Shown in pieces: positions 21,481 to 64,000 of a stretch of DNA of 64,000 bases. The notes beneath the pieces are model-generated. The model saw only the letters and a program-made list of their open reading frames with translations. It did not search any database and was not told where the DNA came from. The stretch is from Buchnera aphidicola str. Ak (Acyrthosiphon kondoi). GTDB lineage: Bacteria > Pseudomonadota > Gammaproteobacteria > Enterobacterales > Enterobacteriaceae. The position numbers were made by a program, and so were the translations under genes. Within the stretch, counting starts at the first letter, position 1; the number at the start of each line of letters is the position of its first letter. The DNA lies in contig NC_017256.1 in the NCBI RefSeq assembly GCF_000225445.1, forward strand, positions 62,001-126,000, written 5' to 3'.

Positions 21481-22422
21481 ATGCAAGTGGGGAAAAGTAA
21501 TAATATAAATAGTAAAATTAAAAAATTTTATGAGAAAAAAAATAATTTAAAAGATTTTTTAAAAGAAGATGAAATGAAAACATTAGAAAAGATTAACAAT
21601 TGTTTTATAGATCATTTCATAAAATTTTTTTCTAGTTTTATCAAAAATAGGGTGGAATTGATTTCATATAATACGAGTATAAGATCTTGTGATTCTAACG
21701 AAAAGATTATCAAAAATTTTAGATGTCTTAACTTAATAAAAATATTACCTTATAACAATCAATCTTTTATAATCTTTTCTTCTGATTTTTTATCTACTAT
21801 TATAGACATTTTATTTGGCGGTCGAGGTAATGTTATAGATAAAACTGAAAAAATAAAAGATATTACATCTACTGAATCTTTAATTAATACAAAAATAGTT
21901 AAATTTGTAACTAGTGCTTTGTCTGAAATATATACAAAATATTTTTCATCAGAAATTAATTTTATTGATAAAAAAATATTTTTTGATTTTAAAAAATCTG
22001 ATTTTGATTTTAATACAGTATTTTTAATTAATTTTTTTAATTTTAATATTAATAATATAGAAGTTTTTTTTAATATTTTAATTCCAATATCAACGTTTAA
22101 AAAAATAAATAAAAACATTTTTCTTTCAGAAAATCTTGATAATGAAAATAAATGTATAAAAAAAAATTTAAAGAATAAAATTACTTTGAATGACATAGAT
22201 GATGTCGAATTAAATATTATATCGAAAATAATTGATATTTCTATTCCATACAATGCCCTTTATAATTTATCAGTAGGGGATGTATTATCAGTCAAAAACC
22301 CGAATAAAACTATAGGTTTTATAGAAGACGAAGCTATATTTTTTGGTAATTATAATAGATTTAATGAACAATCTATTGTTTTTATAGAAGAATTTATTAA
22401 TAATAATTTAGAGTCTAATTAA
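21481..22422 (+). CDS. fliM: Flagellar switch protein FliM, N-terminally altered
   Basis: C-ring component between FliG and FliN. It has 313 residues (E. coli 334). The middle-domain GGRG motif (LFGGRG, 111-116) needed for FliG contact is kept, and the FliN-like C-terminal domain is recognisable ([14 protein letters not shown]). The N-terminus lacks the LSQAEIDALL-type segment that binds phospho-CheY in E. coli. fliL, which lies between fliK and fliM in E. coli, is absent; only 102 bases separate the two genes here. Confidence 0.93.
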
Positions 22423-22438
22423 GATAAGGAATACTCTA

Positions 22439-22840
22439 ATGAGTAGTATACAGAAAAACTCTAATAATGAAAAACTAATCGGTTCTGAAAAAAAAACACC
22501 TGAATATCAAGAAATTAATAAAGATTTATCATCTCAAGAAGATTTGAATACAAGTGTGCTAGATAATTCTGATGATATAACAGAAAGTAAACATGTGTTA
22601 CTTAATACGTTTGTTAATATTACAGTCGAACTGGGAAAATCAAAAATAAAAATAAAGGATTTTCTTAGTCTTTCAAAAGGAAGCATGTTAATTCTAGATA
22701 AAACAATAAAAGAACCATTAGATATCTTTATCAATGGTCACTTAATTGCATCTGGTGAAATTGTAGTTTCAGAAAAAAAATACGGTCTTCGTATTACTAG
22801 CATAAAAAATTCTTTAAAAACCATGAATATTTTATCTTAA
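22439..22840 (+). CDS. fliN: Flagellar switch / C-ring protein FliN
   Basis: FliN forms the base of the C-ring and docks FliH for export. It has 133 residues (E. coli 137). The C-terminal SpoA domain is well kept: [47 protein letters not shown]. The first 50 residues are a polar, variable tail. It follows fliM by 16 bases and precedes fliO/P by 11. Its conservation, compared with the eroded FliM start, fits a role in export rather than switching. Confidence 0.96.
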
Positions 22841-53810: not shown

Positions 53811-55133
53811 TTAATAAAATGAAAATAGATCATTATGAGCAGATTTTAAATCACTTTCCCAGGATATTTTCCACGTGCCTCTATTTTTATTATTTATATT
53901 AATAATAAAGACTCCTAGAGCACTAATAAAATTATTGTTATAAAACACAAGTGGAATTTGATTTCTTAACCAAGGAGGAATTTTTTTCTCTTGCCATATT
54001 TTTTTTATCTTTCTTTTTTTATTTCTTCCTAAAATTAAAACATATCCTTCATATTGAAAACGAATATTAATTAATTCATTATTTTTAGGTGCTGGAAGTT
54101 CAATACCATTATTATCTTTTATTAAATTTCCTAGGTTATTAGGAAGTATTAGTTTAGTATATTTTTTATGCCAAAAAAGTAGGGTATTTTTAAGATTGAT
54201 TTGTTTTTTTATAAAATAAAGCGATTCTTTATAACGTCTTATTTCATATTTTTCTAGAATTATTTTAGGATTTGCATCTATTCGACTAAAAATCATTTGA
54301 TGATAAATGCATTGAATATTCTTATAAGATGGTATTTTTATTTTTTTTGATAAAAGCCAATATCTAATTAGTGCTGTGCATATTTCTTTTTTTATATTCT
54401 TAAAATCTTTAATATTTAAAGAATCGTCAAATTGTATAAAATCATGAATTTTTTCATGTAGAAAATAATTTAATAGCCTAGTTTCTTGTTGACATATATT
54501 TGTTGTACGAAAACAATTTTTTAAAAAATAAGGCCATCTTTTTTCTAATACAGGAATAATTGTATGTCGTACAAAATTACGATCATAATCAATGTTTAAA
54601 TTACTAAAATCTTCAATCCAGTGTAAATGTTTTTTTTTGGCCCAAAACATCAGCTCTTTTTTTGTTTTATTTAGAAAAGGACGAACTATTTTTTTGGTGC
54701 CAAATAAAGTTTCAAAAGACATACTGGAAAGTCCAGTAGGGCCGCTTCCTCTTTTTAAAGATAAAATAAATGTTTCACATTGATCATTCATATGATGACC
54801 GGTCAATAGTATTTCGTCAAAAAATAAATGATTATATATAATATTGTATCTTTTTATTCTTAGTTTTTCTTCAATATTACTTGTTTTTTTATTAATATTA
54901 ATATTTTCAATAATCAATGAAATGCTATTTATATCGCAAATTTTTTTACAATGTTCTGTCCATTTTTTTGAAAGTAAAGTAAGATTATGATTAATATGAA
55001 TGGCACGTATCTTGATGGAATATTTTTTTTTTATTTCTAGTAATTGATGAAGAAGTACCGTGGAATCCAACCCACCACTATAAGCTATTAAAAATGATTT
55101 ATTTTTATATTTACTGATAGTTTTTTCAATCAA
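53811..55133 (-). CDS. tilS: tRNA(Ile)-lysidine synthetase TilS (TTG start)
   Basis: Modifies C34 of tRNA-Ile(CAU) to lysidine, an essential step. The PP-loop SGGLDSTVLLHQL is intact, as are GHHMNDQCETFILSLKRGSG and WIEDFSNLNIDYDRNFVR; the C-terminal domain has LILGRNKKRKIKKIWQE and PPWLRNQIPLVFY. The open frame extends into the upstream tRNA-Val, and no ATG lies between that tRNA and the PP-loop. The best start is TTG at 55131-55133, giving 440 residues (E. coli 432). It is probably co-transcribed with the tRNA. Confidence 0.92.
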   Translation of the reverse strand: MIEKTISKYKNKSFLIAYSGGLDSTVLLHQLLEIKKKYSIKIRAIHINHNLTLLSKKWTEHCKKICDINSISLIIENININKKTSNIEEKLRIKRYNIIYNHLFFDEILLTGHHMNDQCETFILSLKRGSGPTGLSSMSFETLFGTKKIVRPFLNKTKKELMFWAKKKHLHWIEDFSNLNIDYDRNFVRHTIIPVLEKRWPYFLKNCFRTTNICQQETRLLNYFLHEKIHDFIQFDDSLNIKDFKNIKKEICTALIRYWLLSKKIKIPSYKNIQCIYHQMIFSRIDANPKIILEKYEIRRYKESLYFIKKQINLKNTLLFWHKKYTKLILPNNLGNLIKDNNGIELPAPKNNELINIRFQYEGYVLILGRNKKRKIKKIWQEKKIPPWLRNQIPLVFYNNNFISALGVFIININNKNRGTWKISWESDLKSAHNDLFSFY

Positions 55134-55165
55134 ATAAAAATTGCCTATAAACTTATATTTTTTAA

Positions 55166-55239
55166 TACGTTCGAGTGGACTTGAACCACCAACTTCTACC
55201 ATGTCATAGTAGCGCTCTAACCAATTGAGCTACGAACGT
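55166..55239 (-). tRNA. tRNA-Val (GAC)
   Basis: 74-base cloverleaf on the minus strand: acceptor ACGTTCG/CGAACGT, D-arm AGCTCAATTGGTTAGAGC, anticodon stem CTACT/GGTAG with loop ATGACAT giving GAC, T-arm TTGGTGGTTCAAGTCCACT, discriminator A. It matches E. coli tRNA-Val2, but the first pair is A1-U72 instead of G1-C72. CCA is not encoded. It lies 32 bases upstream of the tilS start on the same strand. Confidence 0.96.
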
Positions 55240-56129: not shown

Positions 56130-56711
56130 ATGAAACATTATATTTTATTTTTTATTTCTAATATATTAATTGAAAATTTTATTTTAGTAAAATTTCTTGG
56201 TTTATGTCCTTTTTTGGGTACTTCAAATAAAATTGAAACTGCTTTTGGGATGAGTTTTGCAACTGCTTTTGTTGTACTTGTATCATCAGTATTGTTATGG
56301 TGGGTTAATGCTTTTATTTTATTACCTCTTGATTTAGTTTATTTAAGAATTATCGCTTATATGTTGATTATTTCATTTAGTGTTCAATTTTTAGAAATAA
56401 TATTGCGTAATACCAGTCCTATTTTATATCGTTTACTTGGAATTTTTCTTCCATTAATTACAACTAATTGTGCGGTTTTGGCAATTCCATTGTTTAGTTT
56501 GTATTCAAATCATACATTTTTAGACACTATATTTTATGGAATAAGCGCATCGTTTGGATTTACTTTTGTAATGATTGTTTTTTCTTGTATTCGCGAACGT
56601 ATAGTATTGTCTGATGTTCCTTTGCCATTTAAAGGTGCTCCTATTGTTTTGATCACTGTGAGTCTAATATCTATTACATTCATGGGTTTCAAAGGTTTGA
56701 TAAAATTTTAA
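56130..56711 (+). CDS. rsxA: Rsx/Rnf electron-transport complex subunit A
   Basis: Integral membrane subunit of the Rsx (Rnf-type) complex, which in E. coli keeps the SoxR iron-sulfur cluster reduced and in relatives couples ferredoxin/NADH electron flow to ion movement. It has 193 residues, the same as E. coli, with about six membrane segments. Kept motifs: [20 protein letters not shown], the block [13 protein letters not shown] and FSCIRERI. First gene of rsxABCDGE, with rsxB 2 bases later. Confidence 0.97.
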
Positions 56712-56713
56712 TT

Positions 56714-57214
56714 ATGTTCATACTCATTATTTTTGGTGCATTATCTTTTTTATTAGGAATAATATTAAGTTTAACCGCTTATAAATTTCGATCAAAAGAA
56801 GATCCTTTCATAGACATAGTTGATGAATTATTACCTCAAAGTCAATGTGCTCAATGCGGATATTCTGGATGCTATCCTTATGCAAAAGCAATAGTACAAA
56901 ATTCTGAAGAAATCGATAAATGCATTCCTGGTGGTGCTGATCTTATATTGGAAATAGCTAATGTGTTAAATATAAAAGAACCCAAAGAAAATTTAACTAT
57001 TGACAATAAAAAACAAAAAAAAACAACTGTATGGATTGATGAAAAAAACTGTGTTGGATGCTCAAAATGTGCTATTTTTTGTCCAGTAGACGCAATAGTT
57101 GGTGCCCCTAATTTCATTCATACAGTTTTACAAAAATTTTGTACTGGTTGTAATATTTGTTTATTACATTGTCCAACTAATTGTATTAAAATAAAAAAAG
57201 AAATTCATGAATAA
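56714..57214 (+). CDS. rsxB: Rsx/Rnf complex iron-sulfur subunit B
   Basis: Membrane-anchored ferredoxin-like subunit. It has 166 residues (E. coli 192), with the C-terminal tail shortened. N-terminal membrane helix at about 2-23; a 4Fe-4S domain with CAQCGYSGC plus a later Cys (CIPGG); then two ferredoxin-type clusters, [20 protein letters not shown] and [16 protein letters not shown]. All cluster cysteines are present. Its stop overlaps the probable rsxC start (ATGAATAA). Confidence 0.97.
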
Positions 57215-58837
57215 GTTAAAATTATTAAAAATAAAAAAAATTTTAAAAAATTTTTTTTCTATAAAATGGTGGGAAAAAATATTTTTTTCCATTTTTAACA
57301 TAAAAAAAAATATAATTTTAAAGGAGGTTTGAAATATGTATTTCAAAAAAATGAATCCAGGAGTGTGTTATTAAAATCTTTACCTCTTCCTGATAAATTT
57401 TTTATTTTTATAAAAGGTGATTTTTGTAATAAAAAATTGCGTGTTGAAATAAATCAAAAAGTATTACGTGGACAACCTTTGATTTTTAGTAATAAATTCG
57501 ACACTCCTATTCATGCTCCTACTTCAGGTTTAATAGAAGATATTTTTTTTGATTCAAATCATACTCAAAAACATAAAAAGAATATAAAAATCGTGCTTTC
57601 CCCTGATTATTTGGATAAATGGATCCGGTTAAAACCTATTGAAAATTATAAAAAATATACTCCTGAAAAACTAATTAAAATAATTCATCAATCGGGTATT
57701 GTTGGTCTTGGAGGAGGTGAGTTTTCTTCTGCAAAAAAATTAAAATTAAGTATAAACAAAGTACATACTTTAATTGTAAATGCTGTAGAAAGTGAACCTT
57801 ATATAAGCGCAGATAATTGTTTAGTATATAATTATATAAACGAAATTTTGATCGGATGTAAGATTATTTGTTGGATAACAAAAATTCAAACAGTTGTCAT
57901 CGCTATTCAAGAAGACAGTATCGAATCAATTTCAAAAATTTATGGTTTAATTAAAAATGAATCATTATTTAAAATCTGTATTCTTAAAAAGAAATATCCT
58001 GGAGGCAGTAGTAAAGTACTTATCAAATCTTTAACAGGAAAAGAGATACCTTGTAATAAACATGCTGTAGATATAGGATATCTTATTTTTAATGTTGCTA
58101 CAATATTTTCAATCAAAAGAGCAATTATTAATGGAGAACCATTAACAGAACGTATTATAACTCTTTTTAGTGATCAAAATTTTTTATCTGGTAATTTTTG
58201 GATTAGAATAGGGACTCCAATAAAATATTTTCTTACTGATAATAAATTAAAAAAATGTTTAATTGCATCTGTATATTTAGGAGGTCCATTCATGGGGAAA
58301 AAGATTAATAATACAAATTACTCTGTATCAAAAAAAACAAATGGTATTTTAATTAAACTTGAACAAGAGAAAAGTAAAAATATCATCGAAAAAAACTGTA
58401 TTCGATGCGGTTATTGTTTGCATGTATGTCCCGTGAATTTGATTCCCCAACAGCTTTATTGGTACAGCCGAAATAAGAATCATAAGGAAACAAAAAAACA
58501 CTATATTTTAGATTGCATTGAATGTAAAGCATGTGAGAAGGTATGTCCTAGTCATATTCCATTAGTAAAATATTTTAAAAAAGAGAAGCATATTTTAAAA
58601 AGTATTAAATTAGAAAATAATCATAAAAAAATATCATTAATTAGATTTAAAAAAAGGGAAAAACGTTTATTAAATGCCAAAATGACAATTAATATTAATG
58701 ATCAAAAGCATGCTTTTATAAAAAATAGCAACGTATATTTAATAAAAAATAGAGATGAAAAAATTAGTAATACAAAAAAAAATGTACGAAAAAAAGTACT
58801 TCAAGAAGCGATAGAACGTATGAAATCTAAAAAATAA
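57207..58837 (+). CDS. rsxC: Rsx/Rnf complex subunit C, with a -1 shift in an A9 tract near the 5' end
   Basis: NADH/FMN-binding subunit with two 4Fe-4S clusters. The main frame from 57329 has family blocks [36 protein letters not shown] and clusters [12 protein letters not shown] and [12 protein letters not shown]. The true start is probably the ATG at 57207, overlapping rsxB: that frame reads into a run of nine A (57302-57310) and then stops at 57330. One extra A joins it to the main frame, giving F-K-G-G-L aligned with E. coli F-N-G-G-I; about 543 residues in total. The C-terminal Ala-rich repeats of E. coli RsxC (740 residues) are reduced to one copy. Confidence 0.88.
57302..57310 (+). 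repeat. rsxC: Poly(A)9 tract carrying the rsxC frameshift
   Basis: Nine A in a row within the rsxC 5' region. With ten, codons before and after the tract form one frame. A candidate site for transcriptional slippage. Confidence 0.75.
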
Positions 58838-58884
58838 AGTTTTATCTAAAAAAATTTTATATTAATATATAACATAAGAAAAAA

Positions 58885-59946
58885 ATGAACTTTCCTTGTA
58901 TCTATCATACTTATAGTATTAGAAAAATAATGTTTCTAGTTATTATAGCTTGCATTCCAGGTCTTTTTACTAAGTTTTATTTTTTTGGTGGAGGAGCTTT
59001 AATACAGATTTTATTTTCTATATTTATTACTTTATTACTAGAAATCAGCATTTTAAAAATGCGTCTTAAAAAAATTAAAATTAATTTACGAGATAATTCC
59101 TCGATTTTAACTTCAGTTTTATTTGCACTAAGTATTCCTGTTTTACTTCCTTGGTGGATAATAGTTATTGGTTTGTTTTTTTCTATCATTGTTGCTAAAC
59201 ATTTATATGGCGGAATGGGTCAGAATATATTTAATCCAGCTATGGTTGGATATGCAGTATTATTAATATCTTTTCCTATTCACATGAATAGTTGGAATGA
59301 AAGAGATTTTTCTTTGTCTATTTTTGATGATTTAAAAAAATCTTCATGTATTATTTTTTTTAAAAATCATACATGTACTATCAGTAGTACTAATACTATT
59401 AGTAATAGAAAATTGCGTATTACTCCTGATGCTTTTACAGAAGCTACTCCTTTAGACGATTTTAAAATTAAATCTCATTTAAGAGATAATTTTTTATCAA
59501 AAGAGATTACATTAAACGATAAAAAAAATAATATTCAGACTAGTTGGAAATATATGAATATAAGCTTTTTTTTAGGTGGAGTTTTTCTGTTATTTACAAA
59601 AATAATTTGTTGGCGTATTCCGATCAGTTTTTTAACTTCTTTAGGAGTTATATCAATTATAACTTATTTTTATTCACAAGAGTTATTTATGTCTCCATTA
59701 GTTCATTTTCTTTCCGGTGGAACTATGATATGTGCATTTTTTATTGCTACAGATCCAGTAACTACTTCTTGCACTAATATTGGAAAAATAGTTTTCGGTA
59801 TTATTATCGGTTTTTTGGTTTGGATTATTCGTAATTATAGTGATTATCCTGATGCAATTGCTTTTTCTGTTTTATTTGCAAATATGACTGCACCATTAAT
59901 GGATTATTATATAAAAACTTCTGGATATGGTCATAATAATATATGA
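58885..59946 (+). CDS. rsxD: Rsx/Rnf complex subunit D
   Basis: Polytopic membrane flavoprotein subunit related to NqrB. It has 353 residues (E. coli 352), with about eight to nine membrane helices. Kept blocks: [40 protein letters not shown] and the sequence DPVTTSC. The covalent-FMN threonine region reads [11 protein letters not shown]; homologs usually have SGAT here, so a Glu replaces the Gly. It ends in an ATGA overlap with rsxG. Confidence 0.95.
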
Positions 59947-60574
59947 AAACATTCAAAGAAATATTCAAACAAGCTTTTTTAATGAGTTTTTTTTCAATTG
60001 TATCTATATCTGGAATAGTTTTAATAAACAATATCACAAAAAATAAAATTATTTTTCAAAAAGAAAAAGAAAAAAAAAAATATTAGAAGAGGTTGTTCCT
60101 TCTAATATCTATAATGCTTTCGAAAAAAAAATGTATAAAATTAAAAATAAATTATTAGGAGATTGTAAAATACATAATTTGTGGTTGTTGTCTAAAAATA
60201 ATAAACCTAAAGCCGCAATTGTTGAAACGACAGCACCTGATGGTTATTCTGGTTCTATTTATATGATAGTCGCAGCATATTTTAATGGAAAAATTATTGG
60301 TGTAAGAGTTTTATCACATAAGGAAACACCAGGAATTGGAGATAAAATTGAATTATCTGTTTCTGATTGGATTAGTAAATTTACTAGTATGTATGTCTCT
60401 TCTTTAGAAGACAAGAATTTTAAATTACGAAAATATGGAGGAGAGATCGAACAATTTACAGGAGCTACAATTACACCACAATCAGTAACGAATTCTGTTA
60501 AAAAAACAGTTTTTTTCATTAAAAATATACCATCAATATTTAATCTTTTAAATAAGGATGTTCATGAATATTAA
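59943..60574 (+). CDS. rsxG: Rsx/Rnf complex subunit G, with a -1 shift in an A11 tract
   Basis: Membrane-anchored periplasmic flavoprotein. The start at 59943 overlaps rsxD and encodes a membrane helix (about 10-30), then reaches eleven A (60070-60080) and a stop (60084-60086). One extra A continues into [10 protein letters not shown] and the frame that runs to 60574, giving about 210 residues (E. coli 206). The second part is well kept: [35 protein letters not shown] and [11 protein letters not shown] with the FMN-binding Thr. The clean reading on both sides argues against a dead gene. Confidence 0.88.
60070..60080 (+). repeat. rsxG: Poly(A)11 tract carrying the rsxG frameshift
   Basis: Eleven consecutive A inside rsxG, the longest A-run of the three frameshifted tracts. 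Twelve A would restore a single frame. A likely slippage site for RNA polymerase, or an assembly error. Confidence 0.75.
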
Positions 60575-61262
60575 ATATTTTTTAAATAATAGATTGTGGA
60601 GAAGTAATTCTTCTTTAGTACAATTATTAGGATTATGTCCAGTTTTAGCAATGACAACTAATTCTGTCAATGCCATAGGTTTAGGAATAACAACTACTTT
60701 AGTATTAACTATTACAAATACTATAATTTCTATTTTTAAAAATTTAATACCCAAAAATTTGAGAATTCCAATTTATATGATGATTATTTCATCGATTGTT
60801 ACATGTATAGAAATGTTGCTTCATGCTTATCAATTTAATTTATATCAATCTTTAGGTATTTTTATTCCATTAATCGTAACAAATTGTATTATTGTGGGAC
60901 GAGCAGATCTTATTGCTTATAAAAGCTCTATAATATCATCTTTTTTCGATGGTATTTTTATAGGTTTAGGATCAACTTGTGCTATGTTTATAGTAGCTTC
61001 TATACGTGAAATATTAGGTAATGGAACTTTATTTTTTGGATTGAATAAAATTGTATCTAATATAGACAGCTCTATTTTTATTACATTATTAGATAAAAAA
61101 TATACTATAATTTTAGCTATTTTCCCACCTGGTGGTTTTTTTGTATTAGGTTTTATAATTGCTTTTAAAAATTGTATAGACTTATATTATAAAAAAAATA
61201 AAATTAATAATTCTTTAAAATGTTTATGTACTAATCAGACAAAAAAAATAATAAAAAAATGA
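60564..61262 (+). CDS. rsxE: Rsx/Rnf complex subunit E
   Basis: Membrane subunit paralogous to RsxA. It has 232 residues (E. coli 231) from the ATG at 60564, which has AAGGA about 5 bases upstream; another ATG is two codons earlier. Kept: [39 protein letters not shown] and [15 protein letters not shown]. It overlaps rsxG by 11 bases and ends in an ATGA overlap with nth. Confidence 0.96.
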
Positions 61263-61885
61263 ATAAAGAAAAACGTTACAAAATTTTATCACTCTTTCAG
61301 AGTAAAAATCCTGTGCCTCAGACAGGACTAGTTTTTTCTTCTCCTTTTGAATTATTATTATGTGTAATGCTTTCAGCTCAATCTACTGATATCATGGTGA
61401 ATAAAATTACTAAAATATTGTTTAAAAAAGCAAATACTCCTGAGAGCATTTTGTTATTAGGATTAGATCGTCTGAAAAGTTATATTAAAAATATTGGTTT
61501 GTATAATATTAAAGCATTAAATATTCTTCGTACTTCTTTTTTGATATTAACTAAACACAAAGGAATTATTCCAAATAATCGTATTGAATTAGAATCTTTT
61601 CCTGGGGTAGGACGGAAAACATCTAATATTGTTTTAAACATATTGTTTAAAAAAAAAACTATTGCTGTAGATACACATGTTTTTAGAGTATCTAATCGTA
61701 CTCATTTTGCTAAAGGAAAAAATGTAAAAGAAGTTGAAAAAAAATTAATTAAAGTAGTTCCTGATATTTTTAAAACAAACTTTCATTCTTGGTTTATTTT
61801 ACATGGTCGGTACGTTTGTACTGCACGAAAAATAAAGTGCAGTATATGTTTGATATCAAAATTATGTGAATTTAAAAAAAAATAA
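61259..61885 (+). CDS. nth: Endonuclease III
   Basis: DNA glycosylase/AP lyase for oxidised pyrimidines. It has 208 residues (E. coli 211). The catalytic K120 in [14 protein letters not shown] and D138 in [12 protein letters not shown] are at the E. coli numbers. The 4Fe-4S motif C-x6-C-x2-C-x5-C at the C-terminus is complete ([17 protein letters not shown]). Last gene of the rsx operon, as in E. coli. One of the base-excision repair enzymes kept. Confidence 0.98.
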
Positions 61886-61907
61886 TATATTTATTATGGA
61901 TATATAA

Positions 61908-64000
61908 GTGATTATTGTAAAAGTTGTTTTGCCTATTCCAGTTAGAAAATATTTTAAATATTTTATGCCTGATTTTATGTGTCCTGTTATTGGAGGTCGA
62001 ATTATAGTTCCTTTTAATTCTAAAGATGTAATAGGCATTGTAGTTGCCGTGTATAAAAAAAACGATATTAATCAATTGAATTTTAAAAATGTTAAATCAT
62101 TGATTGATACTAAATCGCTTTATACTGGCATTATATTAGATCTAATAAGATGGATACATAAAAATTGCCATTGTCCCATTGGGAATCTATTTTTTTCTGT
62201 TTTGCCAAATATTTTACATTCTAATTATATTATAAAAAATGAATATATTTGTCAGTGGAGAATAACAAAAAAAGGCCAAGAATTAGATTTAAACTATTTA
62301 AAAAGAAGAAAAAAACAGCTATATACCTTGCTTTTTTTAAAGAAAAAAGATGTTTTAAGTACTGAACTGAAAAAATACAACTTATCTAAAGTTATTTTAA
62401 AAAAATTAGAAATTGAAGATTTATGTAAAATAAATCTTAATTATAAAGTGTTGTTTAAAAAAAAAACTTTAAAATTAAAAAAAAAATATTTTTAAATAAA
62501 AAAATTTTAATTATGCTTAACGACATTTTAATAAAAAAATGTTTTGTATCTTGGTTATTAACTAAAACTAATTTGTATTCTAAAGTTAAATTTTATTTAG
62601 GTTTAATTAAGTCATTAGTATATAAAGATATGCAAATTTTAATTTTAGTGCCTTATATTAAAAATATAAACATCATTTTAGTTTTTTTAAAAAAATATTT
62701 TCATGTTTCTATTGACATAGTACATTCAAAATTAACTAATAAAAAATATCTCAAAAGTTGGATTCGAACTAAAAATGGTGAAAATTCTATTGTTATTGGT
62801 ACAAAAAAAAGTATTTTTTTATCTTTTTTAAAGTTAGGTGTTATTATTATTCTTGAAGAACACAATATGCAGTATAAAAGTATCAATCAATGTAGATATA
62901 ATATTAGAGATTTAGCTATATTAAGAGCATACAAAGAAAATATACCTATAATTTTAGATTCAGAGACTCCTTCATTAAAAACATTGTATAATATTTTAAA
63001 TAAAAAATGTTTTTATATTCGATTGTATCAATACAATCATATTAGTAGATTAAATTATAGTATTGTTGATTTAAAAAAAGATAAAATAAAATTTGGTTTG
63101 TCTTTGACTTTAATAAATGAAATTAATAAAAATTTCAAAAACAAACAAGTTTTATTAATTTTTAATAAATTTAGTTTATTTTTTTTTGTTTTAGCATGTG
63201 AAAAATGCAACTGGATATTTAAATGTACTAATTGTCATAGTTATTTTGAAATCAATCAATATAGTAATACTTTATTTTGTAAATTTTGTTTAATTCGGAT
63301 TAAAAAACCAGTTTTTTGTCATAATTGTAGATTTTTTTCGCTAGTTATACTCAAAATAAGTATAGAAAAAATTAAAAATAAAGTAAAAGATATTTTTCCA
63401 AATATTCCATCATTTTTTATATTAAATAAAAAAAATATTGATAAAAAGATATTAAATACGAAAATTTTTGAATTTTCTATTTCTAATCCTTGTATTATTA
63501 TTACAACAGAAGAAATCGTCCAACATTATTATTTTCCTCATGTAAAATTAATTAGTTTAATCTGTATTGATAATTATTTTCTTTCTTTTAATTTTCGTTC
63601 TATAGAATATTTTTCTCAATTCTATATTAATTTAAGCAGATTGATTAGAAGTATAAAAAAATCATTTAAAATATTGATACAAACATCATTTTCTAATAAT
63701 TTAAATTTAAAAGAAATATGCAATAGTGGATACTTTCTTTTTTCCAAGAAAATTTTGTTAATGAGAAAAAAGTTTTTATTGCCTCCTTGGAGTTTTCAAA
63801 GCATTGTTTATTCTGAAAGTTTATATGCTGAATATAATATTATTTTTTTAAATTTAATTCGTAACATCTTAATCAAAAAATCTAATAAATATAATTGTTT
63901 TTTATGGTTTGTAGGACCTGATAATACTTTTTTATTTAAAAATAAAAAAAAATATTTTCATCAATTATTAATTCAATGTTCTTCTCGTGTTTCTCTTAAT
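61908..64000 (+). pseudogene. priA: Primosomal protein PriA, frameshifted at A10 and lacking helicase motifs (runs past window edge)
   Basis: The GTG start at 61908 opens a frame matching PriA's 3' DNA-binding N-terminus (VVLPIPVRKYFKYFMP, IGGRIIVPFNSKDVIGIVV, HCPIGNLFFSVLP). It stops at 62493 after ten A (62477-62486). One extra A continues into a frame open to base 64000. There Walker A is replaced by K-T-N-L-Y-S-K-V, DEEH by LEEH (62852-62863), GSATP by DSETP, and motifs V and VI are unrecognisable. All eight zinc cysteines remain (63197-63330), plus LLPPWS and the C-terminal IQCSSR. It may act as a helicase-dead loader or be decaying; the pseudogene label is provisional. Confidence 0.85.
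62477..62486 (+). repeat. priA: Poly(A)10 tract carrying the priA frameshift
   Basis: Ten A between the PriA N-terminal domain and the motor region. Adding one A turns Y-F-stop into I-F-L-N-K-K and continues an open frame of over 1.5 kb. Confidence 0.75.

Follow-up and report, generated by a model that had tools for sequence, protein, structure and literature searches.

The rsx-nth-priA region and its three interrupted genes

The 64,000-nucleotide stretch of Buchnera DNA analyzed here, referred to as the window, corresponds to positions 62001-126000 of contig C1 of genome G000, the Buchnera of the aphid Acyrthosiphon kondoi, and all coordinates, those of an initial annotation included, are window positions. 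Close to the end of the window lies an rsx gene cluster, followed by nth and priA, and in this region rsxC, rsxG and priA change reading frame at runs of A (Table 1). The initial annotation had placed a run of nine A (A9) at 57302, an A11 at 60070 and an A10 at 62477, and all three were found there, with the open frames switching at each of them as claimed. The phase relation proposed for the three tracts was also borne out, and family models ordered the gene pieces head to tail. The main frame of RsxC aligned with positions 3-503 of model NF003454, the RsxG pieces before and after the tract with positions 3-44 (a weak match, E 0.031) and 46-200 of NF002519, and the PriA pieces before and after the break with positions 1-177 and 214-700 of NF004065. 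The conservation that had been described on both sides of each tract was confirmed for both parts of rsxG and priA and for the part of rsxC after the tract, and was weak for the short part of rsxC before it. The sequence does contain all three breaks, yet each is a different phenomenon. The single common cause put forward for them was not supported, as the rsxC break is nearly genus-wide, that of rsxG belongs to a small clade, and those of priA are scattered over 6/30 genomes.

Table 1. Features of the rsx-nth-priA region, in window positions. The names rsxA and rsxB are assumed from gene order and similarity; rsxD, rsxE and nth are likewise presumed names.
Feature	Position	Strand	Remarks
rsxA	56130-56711	+	Open; same cluster
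rsxB	56714-57214	+	Open; same cluster
rsxC, start-codon frame (0 frame)	57207-57301 (frame open to 57332)	+	ATG overlaps the end of rsxB; open up to the tract
rsxC, A9 tract	57302-57310	+	Proposed slippage site
rsxC, main frame	57311-58837 (frame open from 57299, following an in-frame stop)	+	RnfC_N, Complex1_51K and ferredoxin domains; family matches
rsxD	58885-59946	+	Open
rsxG, start-codon frame	59943-60086	+	N-terminal part; ends past the tract
rsxG, A11 tract	60070-60080	+	
rsxG, main frame after the tract	60083-60574	+	FMN-binding domain
rsxE	60558-61262	+	Open
nth	61259-61885	+	Open
priA, first piece	61908-62495	+	3'BD and winged-helix domains
priA, first A10 run	62457-62466	+	Possible site of length change
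priA, second A10 run	62477-62486	+	Run named in the initial annotation; same columns as the G006 break
priA, second piece	62501-64000 (frame open from 62459)	+	Continues beyond the window end (locus L031, 6459-8087)

The out-of-phase rsxC tract across the genus

We searched for rsxC in 36 genomes of the genus; the 30 strong matches are the basis of all 30-genome counts given here, and the remaining six genomes gave weak matches only. In 28/30 genomes, the start-codon frame entered an uninterrupted run of A9-A11, and the RsxC frame continued in another phase. These genomes fell into two classes. The first contained 18 genomes, 16 with A9 and two (G011 and G028) with A11, and the second 10 genomes, all with A10, in which the displacement had the opposite sense. 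The gene was in frame in the other two, G023, with an A9 in a different context, and G030, where the run is interrupted. From a few host names, the A9 genomes are taken to represent Macrosiphini and the A10 genomes Aphidini. Between the first ATG whose frame is open to the tract and the tract itself, the 16 A9 genomes showed seven different distances, each of them 2 modulo 3; the 13 other genomes that were measured showed six, each of them 0 modulo 3. This constancy indicated that the upstream frame has been preserved despite insertions and deletions.

The conserved YNFxGG residues of RsxC stand directly at the tract, with F, G and G invariant (14/14), and in 25 of the 28 out-of-phase genomes the RsxC frame had no ATG, GTG or TTG from its last stop codon up to the tract. 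Past the tract, the first start codon came as late as codon 146 (G001 and G004), 176 (G034) or 95 (G006). As RnfC_N spans residues 5-101 of the RsxC piece, these late starts fall near the end of that domain or beyond it. Other genomes have a TTG, GTG or ATG sooner, such as the TTG at codon 7 in G000. In a wider search, RsxC matches were obtained in 208 of the 246 genomes searched (three of the 208 belong to the genus), and all of the 27 family loci from outside the genus, taken from the best matches, had an in-frame start codon upstream. In 20/27, this was an ATG located 13 codons ahead of the WDF motif, whose start was extrapolated for L087 and L100.

These data bear on the possibility of an RsxC that is translated from a non-standard codon of its own frame, either at the tract or past it, and that has no relation to the frame upstream. 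Start sites did vary among the 17 public RsxC records compared, which is in keeping with such starts: an APS record has 473 amino acids and begins within the domain, at the TTG of codon 24, that of A. fabae has 517 (MKKKYNF), and that of Muscaphis 512 (MDYSS). However, no non-standard start was common to the genomes, and the codon before the tract in the A9 class was CAT, TAT, TGT or CTT, mostly directly after a stop. The position of the YNFxGG residues also speaks against it, as do the similar N-termini of the in-frame genes of G023 and G030 and two records joined through the tract, those of Brachycaudus tragopogonis (531 amino acids) and Cavariella theobaldi (515 amino acids). We thus regard a non-standard start as quite improbable. 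The two joined records suggest that some depositors were aware of the break, and several public Buchnera RsxC records start at doubtful places.

After the tract, RsxC has remained under purifying selection, with a ratio of nonsynonymous to synonymous substitution rates (dN/dS) of 0.25-0.41 in 14/14 close pairs of relatives; these pairs share members, and two of them include G001. In G001 (L049), rsxC is broken not only at its A10 tract but a second time, after 357 codons.

The tract itself was the best kept of the 19 runs of eight or more A found between 56.7 and 64.0 kb. It was A9 or longer in 28 of the 29 other genomes (the 30 less G000), and the 18 other runs reached this length in 0-15/29, the runner-up being that of rsxG (15/29). 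It also exceeded in length every other invariant block of the 30-genome alignment, and among the 16 A9 genomes it ranked second in length out of 1370 such blocks. Codon use accounts for part of this conservation, since AAG made up 8% of the Lys codons after the tract (167/2022) and a pure A9 encoded 32 of the 44 other KKK triplets. The other runs, under the same codon use, were less well kept. A break common to several species, at a tract kept above other runs, is what marks rsxC as a long-maintained frameshift. The Aphidini-Macrosiphini split was fixed at 65 million years in earlier work, where that of the two Acyrthosiphon was placed at 27 (PMC3164680), and the common A9 state would then probably go back tens of millions of years. 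The genus tree, midpoint-rooted and with several low-support nodes, is compatible with one or two origins of the out-of-phase state.

rsxG, priA and other genes of the window

Four genomes (G000, G010, G005 and G029) had an rsxG run of A11, with the gene out of frame, and two (G020 and G032) had A12, with the gene in frame; in the other 24/30 genomes, the reference RsxG matched in a single frame. Since G010 and G032 are sisters, the length of this run seems to change easily. Constraint was observed in both parts of the gene, before and after the tract. For the latter, dN/dS was 0.19-0.38 in 6/6 pairs, with 0.20-0.38 in the five pairs that have at least one A11 gene (four of them A11-A11) and 0.19 in the A12 pair. 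With A11 in 4/6 close relatives and a run second of the 19 in conservation, rsxG also has the marks of a long-maintained frameshift.

The pattern of priA was a different one. Two A10 runs lie 10 bases apart in G000, and the alignment with five relatives fits a length change in either. The reference PriA was found in a single frame in 24/30 genomes, and the gene was broken in G000, G008, G006, G003, G004 and G007. The breaks of G000 and G006 lie on the same alignment columns, that of G006 at the later A10 run, and those of G003 (L044) and G008 (L040) share another stretch, with an A10; the gene of G004 is broken at a T10, and that of G007 is in four pieces, at several places. The broken genomes stand in separate parts of the tree, neither G000 and G006 nor G003 and G008 being sisters, and this scatter resembles repeated loss or repeated tolerated breaks. 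The G000 run was A9 or longer in just 7/29 other genomes. Both pieces of the gene are still constrained, with dN/dS of 0.17-0.34 between G000 and four relatives and 0.26-0.29 in intact pairs. The pattern thus fits recent or tolerated breaks and may be decay. As a separate observation, a script found the Walker A motif GxxxxGK[ST] of PriA in 0/30 genus loci (27 of them correctly located), and it was likewise absent from the segments of the other three, G001, G004 and G009. The remainder of PriA is conserved, and the sequences would be compatible with a PriA that is possibly ATPase-dead across the genus.

Homopolymer sequencing or assembly error had been named as the main alternative for all three genes. 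Pyrosequencing reads were the basis of the first G000 assembly, a point in favor of this explanation, but that assembly was corrected with Illumina reads at a coverage above 100x (PMC3164680). Moreover, the gene was out of phase in 28/30 assemblies for rsxC and in 4/6 close relatives for rsxG. Error is therefore practically excluded for rsxC and very unlikely for rsxG, and it is a possible cause for the priA break of G000; as an account of the breaks overall, we consider it highly improbable.

Ordinary decay, in which the broken genes would be young pseudogenes being lost, agrees with the breaks of priA in six genomes at two common spots plus others, the second rsxC break of G001, and the six genomes with weak RsxC matches. 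It also agrees with earlier work, where 42 of the 69 pseudogenes of four genomes were confined to a single genome and due to homopolymer mutations (PMC3164680). In the same work, 10 homopolymeric frameshifts were counted in the A. kondoi Buchnera genome, and homopolymer breaks were interpreted, as is often the case, as recent gene inactivation. However, decay does not suit rsxC or rsxG, whose open frames and low dN/dS persist across species with the same break. In relative rate, G000 ranked 36/59 for rsxC (over 364 residues), 45/59 for priA and 55/59 for rsxG, and the intact neighbors nth (56/59) and rsxA (59/59) ranked above the broken genes. We therefore find decay rather improbable as a general explanation. 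Pseudogene counts based on truncated length can overlook cases like rsxC.

The genes of the window, as delimited in our list of gene intervals, contain 57 A/T runs of at least nine, and rsxC, rsxG and priA were the three G000 genes found broken at such a run. An automatic frame screen of 62 gene clusters in six genomes, to be taken as a lower bound, gave few further breaks, namely several lesions in one gene of G020, one broken gene in G032, and the gene at 53814-55202 described below. This screen missed the rsxC break in all genomes and the rsxG break in two, including G000. As the breaks of rsxC and of G000 rsxG were found by direct inspection, further ones may have been overlooked. The gene at 53814-55202, which we take to be tilS-like, is open in the window and is frame-broken near its start in G005 and G020, at different places. 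The region 21535-22837, flagged in 5/6 genomes, was discarded, being two adjacent flagellar genes, presumably fliM and fliN, that form a single frame in G005. A looser screen, in which conserved protein was sought ahead of the first start codon, flagged 40/57 genes, mostly because of conservation near the ATG, and its count was not used; inspection by eye left rsxC and rsxG as true N-terminal breaks among them.

Proposed RNA polymerase slippage and comparison with known systems

All 28 rsxC breaks fall in an A/T homopolymer of at least nine (A9-A11), as do that of rsxG (A11) and that of priA, at one of its two A10 runs. Under our proposal, RNA polymerase would slip on the rsxC run, adding or dropping A's, so that some mRNAs would be in phase and give full-length RsxC, and others would give a short peptide, of 41 residues in G000. 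In the four A11 species, rsxG is probably rescued in the same way. It could act on priA too, yet the recurrent breaks in separate lineages may be decay. In Buchnera homopolymers, transcription insertions and deletions both increase with run length (PMC5574713).

Alternatively, the two rsxC frames could be joined by ribosomal frameshifting at the lysine codons within the run. Under the slippery heptamer rule, this has some appeal, as A AAA AAA, the 0-frame reading in the A9 class, is a slippery heptamer for a -1 shift. Nevertheless, the A10 class is opposite in phase at the same place, and no conserved structure was detected in the alignment of 14 A9 genomes, with 0 predicted pairs. Programmed ribosomal frameshifting has one fixed direction and a stimulatory element, a combination that rsxC did not show, and we consider this explanation unlikely. 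RNA polymerase slippage is favored by the opposite phases of the two clades, the lack of a conserved structure and the known slippage on runs of about nine or more (PMC5009743, PMC6260861). Slippage, which the initial annotation had suggested, was thus supported as the likely mechanism, and rescue by this means was already established in Buchnera. Collectively, we read rsxC as a gene that was broken at a poly(A) tract long ago, has been maintained in this state and is expressed through RNA polymerase slippage, with the A11 species of rsxG probably alike, and we give this reading a probability of roughly 75%.

Several points weigh against it. In the three out-of-phase genomes with a start codon in the RsxC frame before the tract, this was TTG only in G015 and G017, and in G005 an ATG 14 codons ahead of the tyrosine, so that a slip may be unnecessary there. 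Similarly, the main frame of G000 rsxG has an ATG at 60131, past the tract, where a shortened RsxG could start without the N-terminal part. Upstream of the rsxC tract, dN/dS was noisy (0.08-1.58 over 14 pairs), and the codon-position signal was not significant (39, 26 and 37 differences, p 0.24), in a test that is weak, since a control just after the tract was likewise not significant (26, 14 and 20, p 0.17). The one study found here that measured transcription indels in Buchnera reports that no frame-restoring transcription error was detected (PMC5574713; circle-sequencing reads SRP072992). Since an A. pisum RsxC record begins past the tract, that study may have left insertions upstream out of its frame-restoring events. 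In reporters, the Escherichia coli RNA polymerase slips at seven or more T and needs still more A (PMC6260861), a threshold that puts the rsxC A9 near the low end.

The out-of-phase tract might itself be selected, as a nearly genus-wide slippage programme that would keep RsxC at a low, fixed share of what the operon yields and thereby limit the whole Rsx complex. This suggestion is tentative, with the odds somewhat against it. It draws on the exact A9 of 16 of the 18 genomes in one class (two have A11), even though the length of the rsxG run shifts nearby and the in-frame genes of G023 and G030 exist. A break kept nearly genus-wide, with a frozen tract and the phase reversed in one clade, would make rsxC a natural test of selection for slippery out-of-frame genes.

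In the literature on Buchnera Rnf and rsxC, slippage and frameshifts, we found no description of the rsxC break, most subscription papers being beyond this search. Slippage rescue in endosymbionts is already known; what is new is a nearly genus-wide rsxC case with a phase switch. Wernegreen, Kauppinen and Degnan reportedly described ancient frameshifts in homopolymeric sequences of Blochmannia in 2010; rsxC differs in symbiont and gene, and its break differs in phase between two clades. The idea of frameshifts kept between species without degradation has also been described (PMC3017870). Tamas et al. 2008, as cited in a later paper, reported long poly(A) runs and frameshifted genes, with 12-50% of transcripts frame-corrected (PMC5009743), and an A10 in a Buchnera mur gene has been named (PMC6260861). 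These cases, which concern mur (cell-wall) genes of Buchnera and a his gene of Blochmannia, resemble rsxC in being frameshifted genes with long poly(A) runs; rsxC differs in that 28 of the 30 species-level genomes have it out of phase, with two opposite phases among them. The runs of 9-10 A or T in Thermus dnaX and in Shigella mxiE and spa13 are also like that of rsxC (PMC6260861). Unlike in these systems, no conserved flanking structure was found for rsxC.

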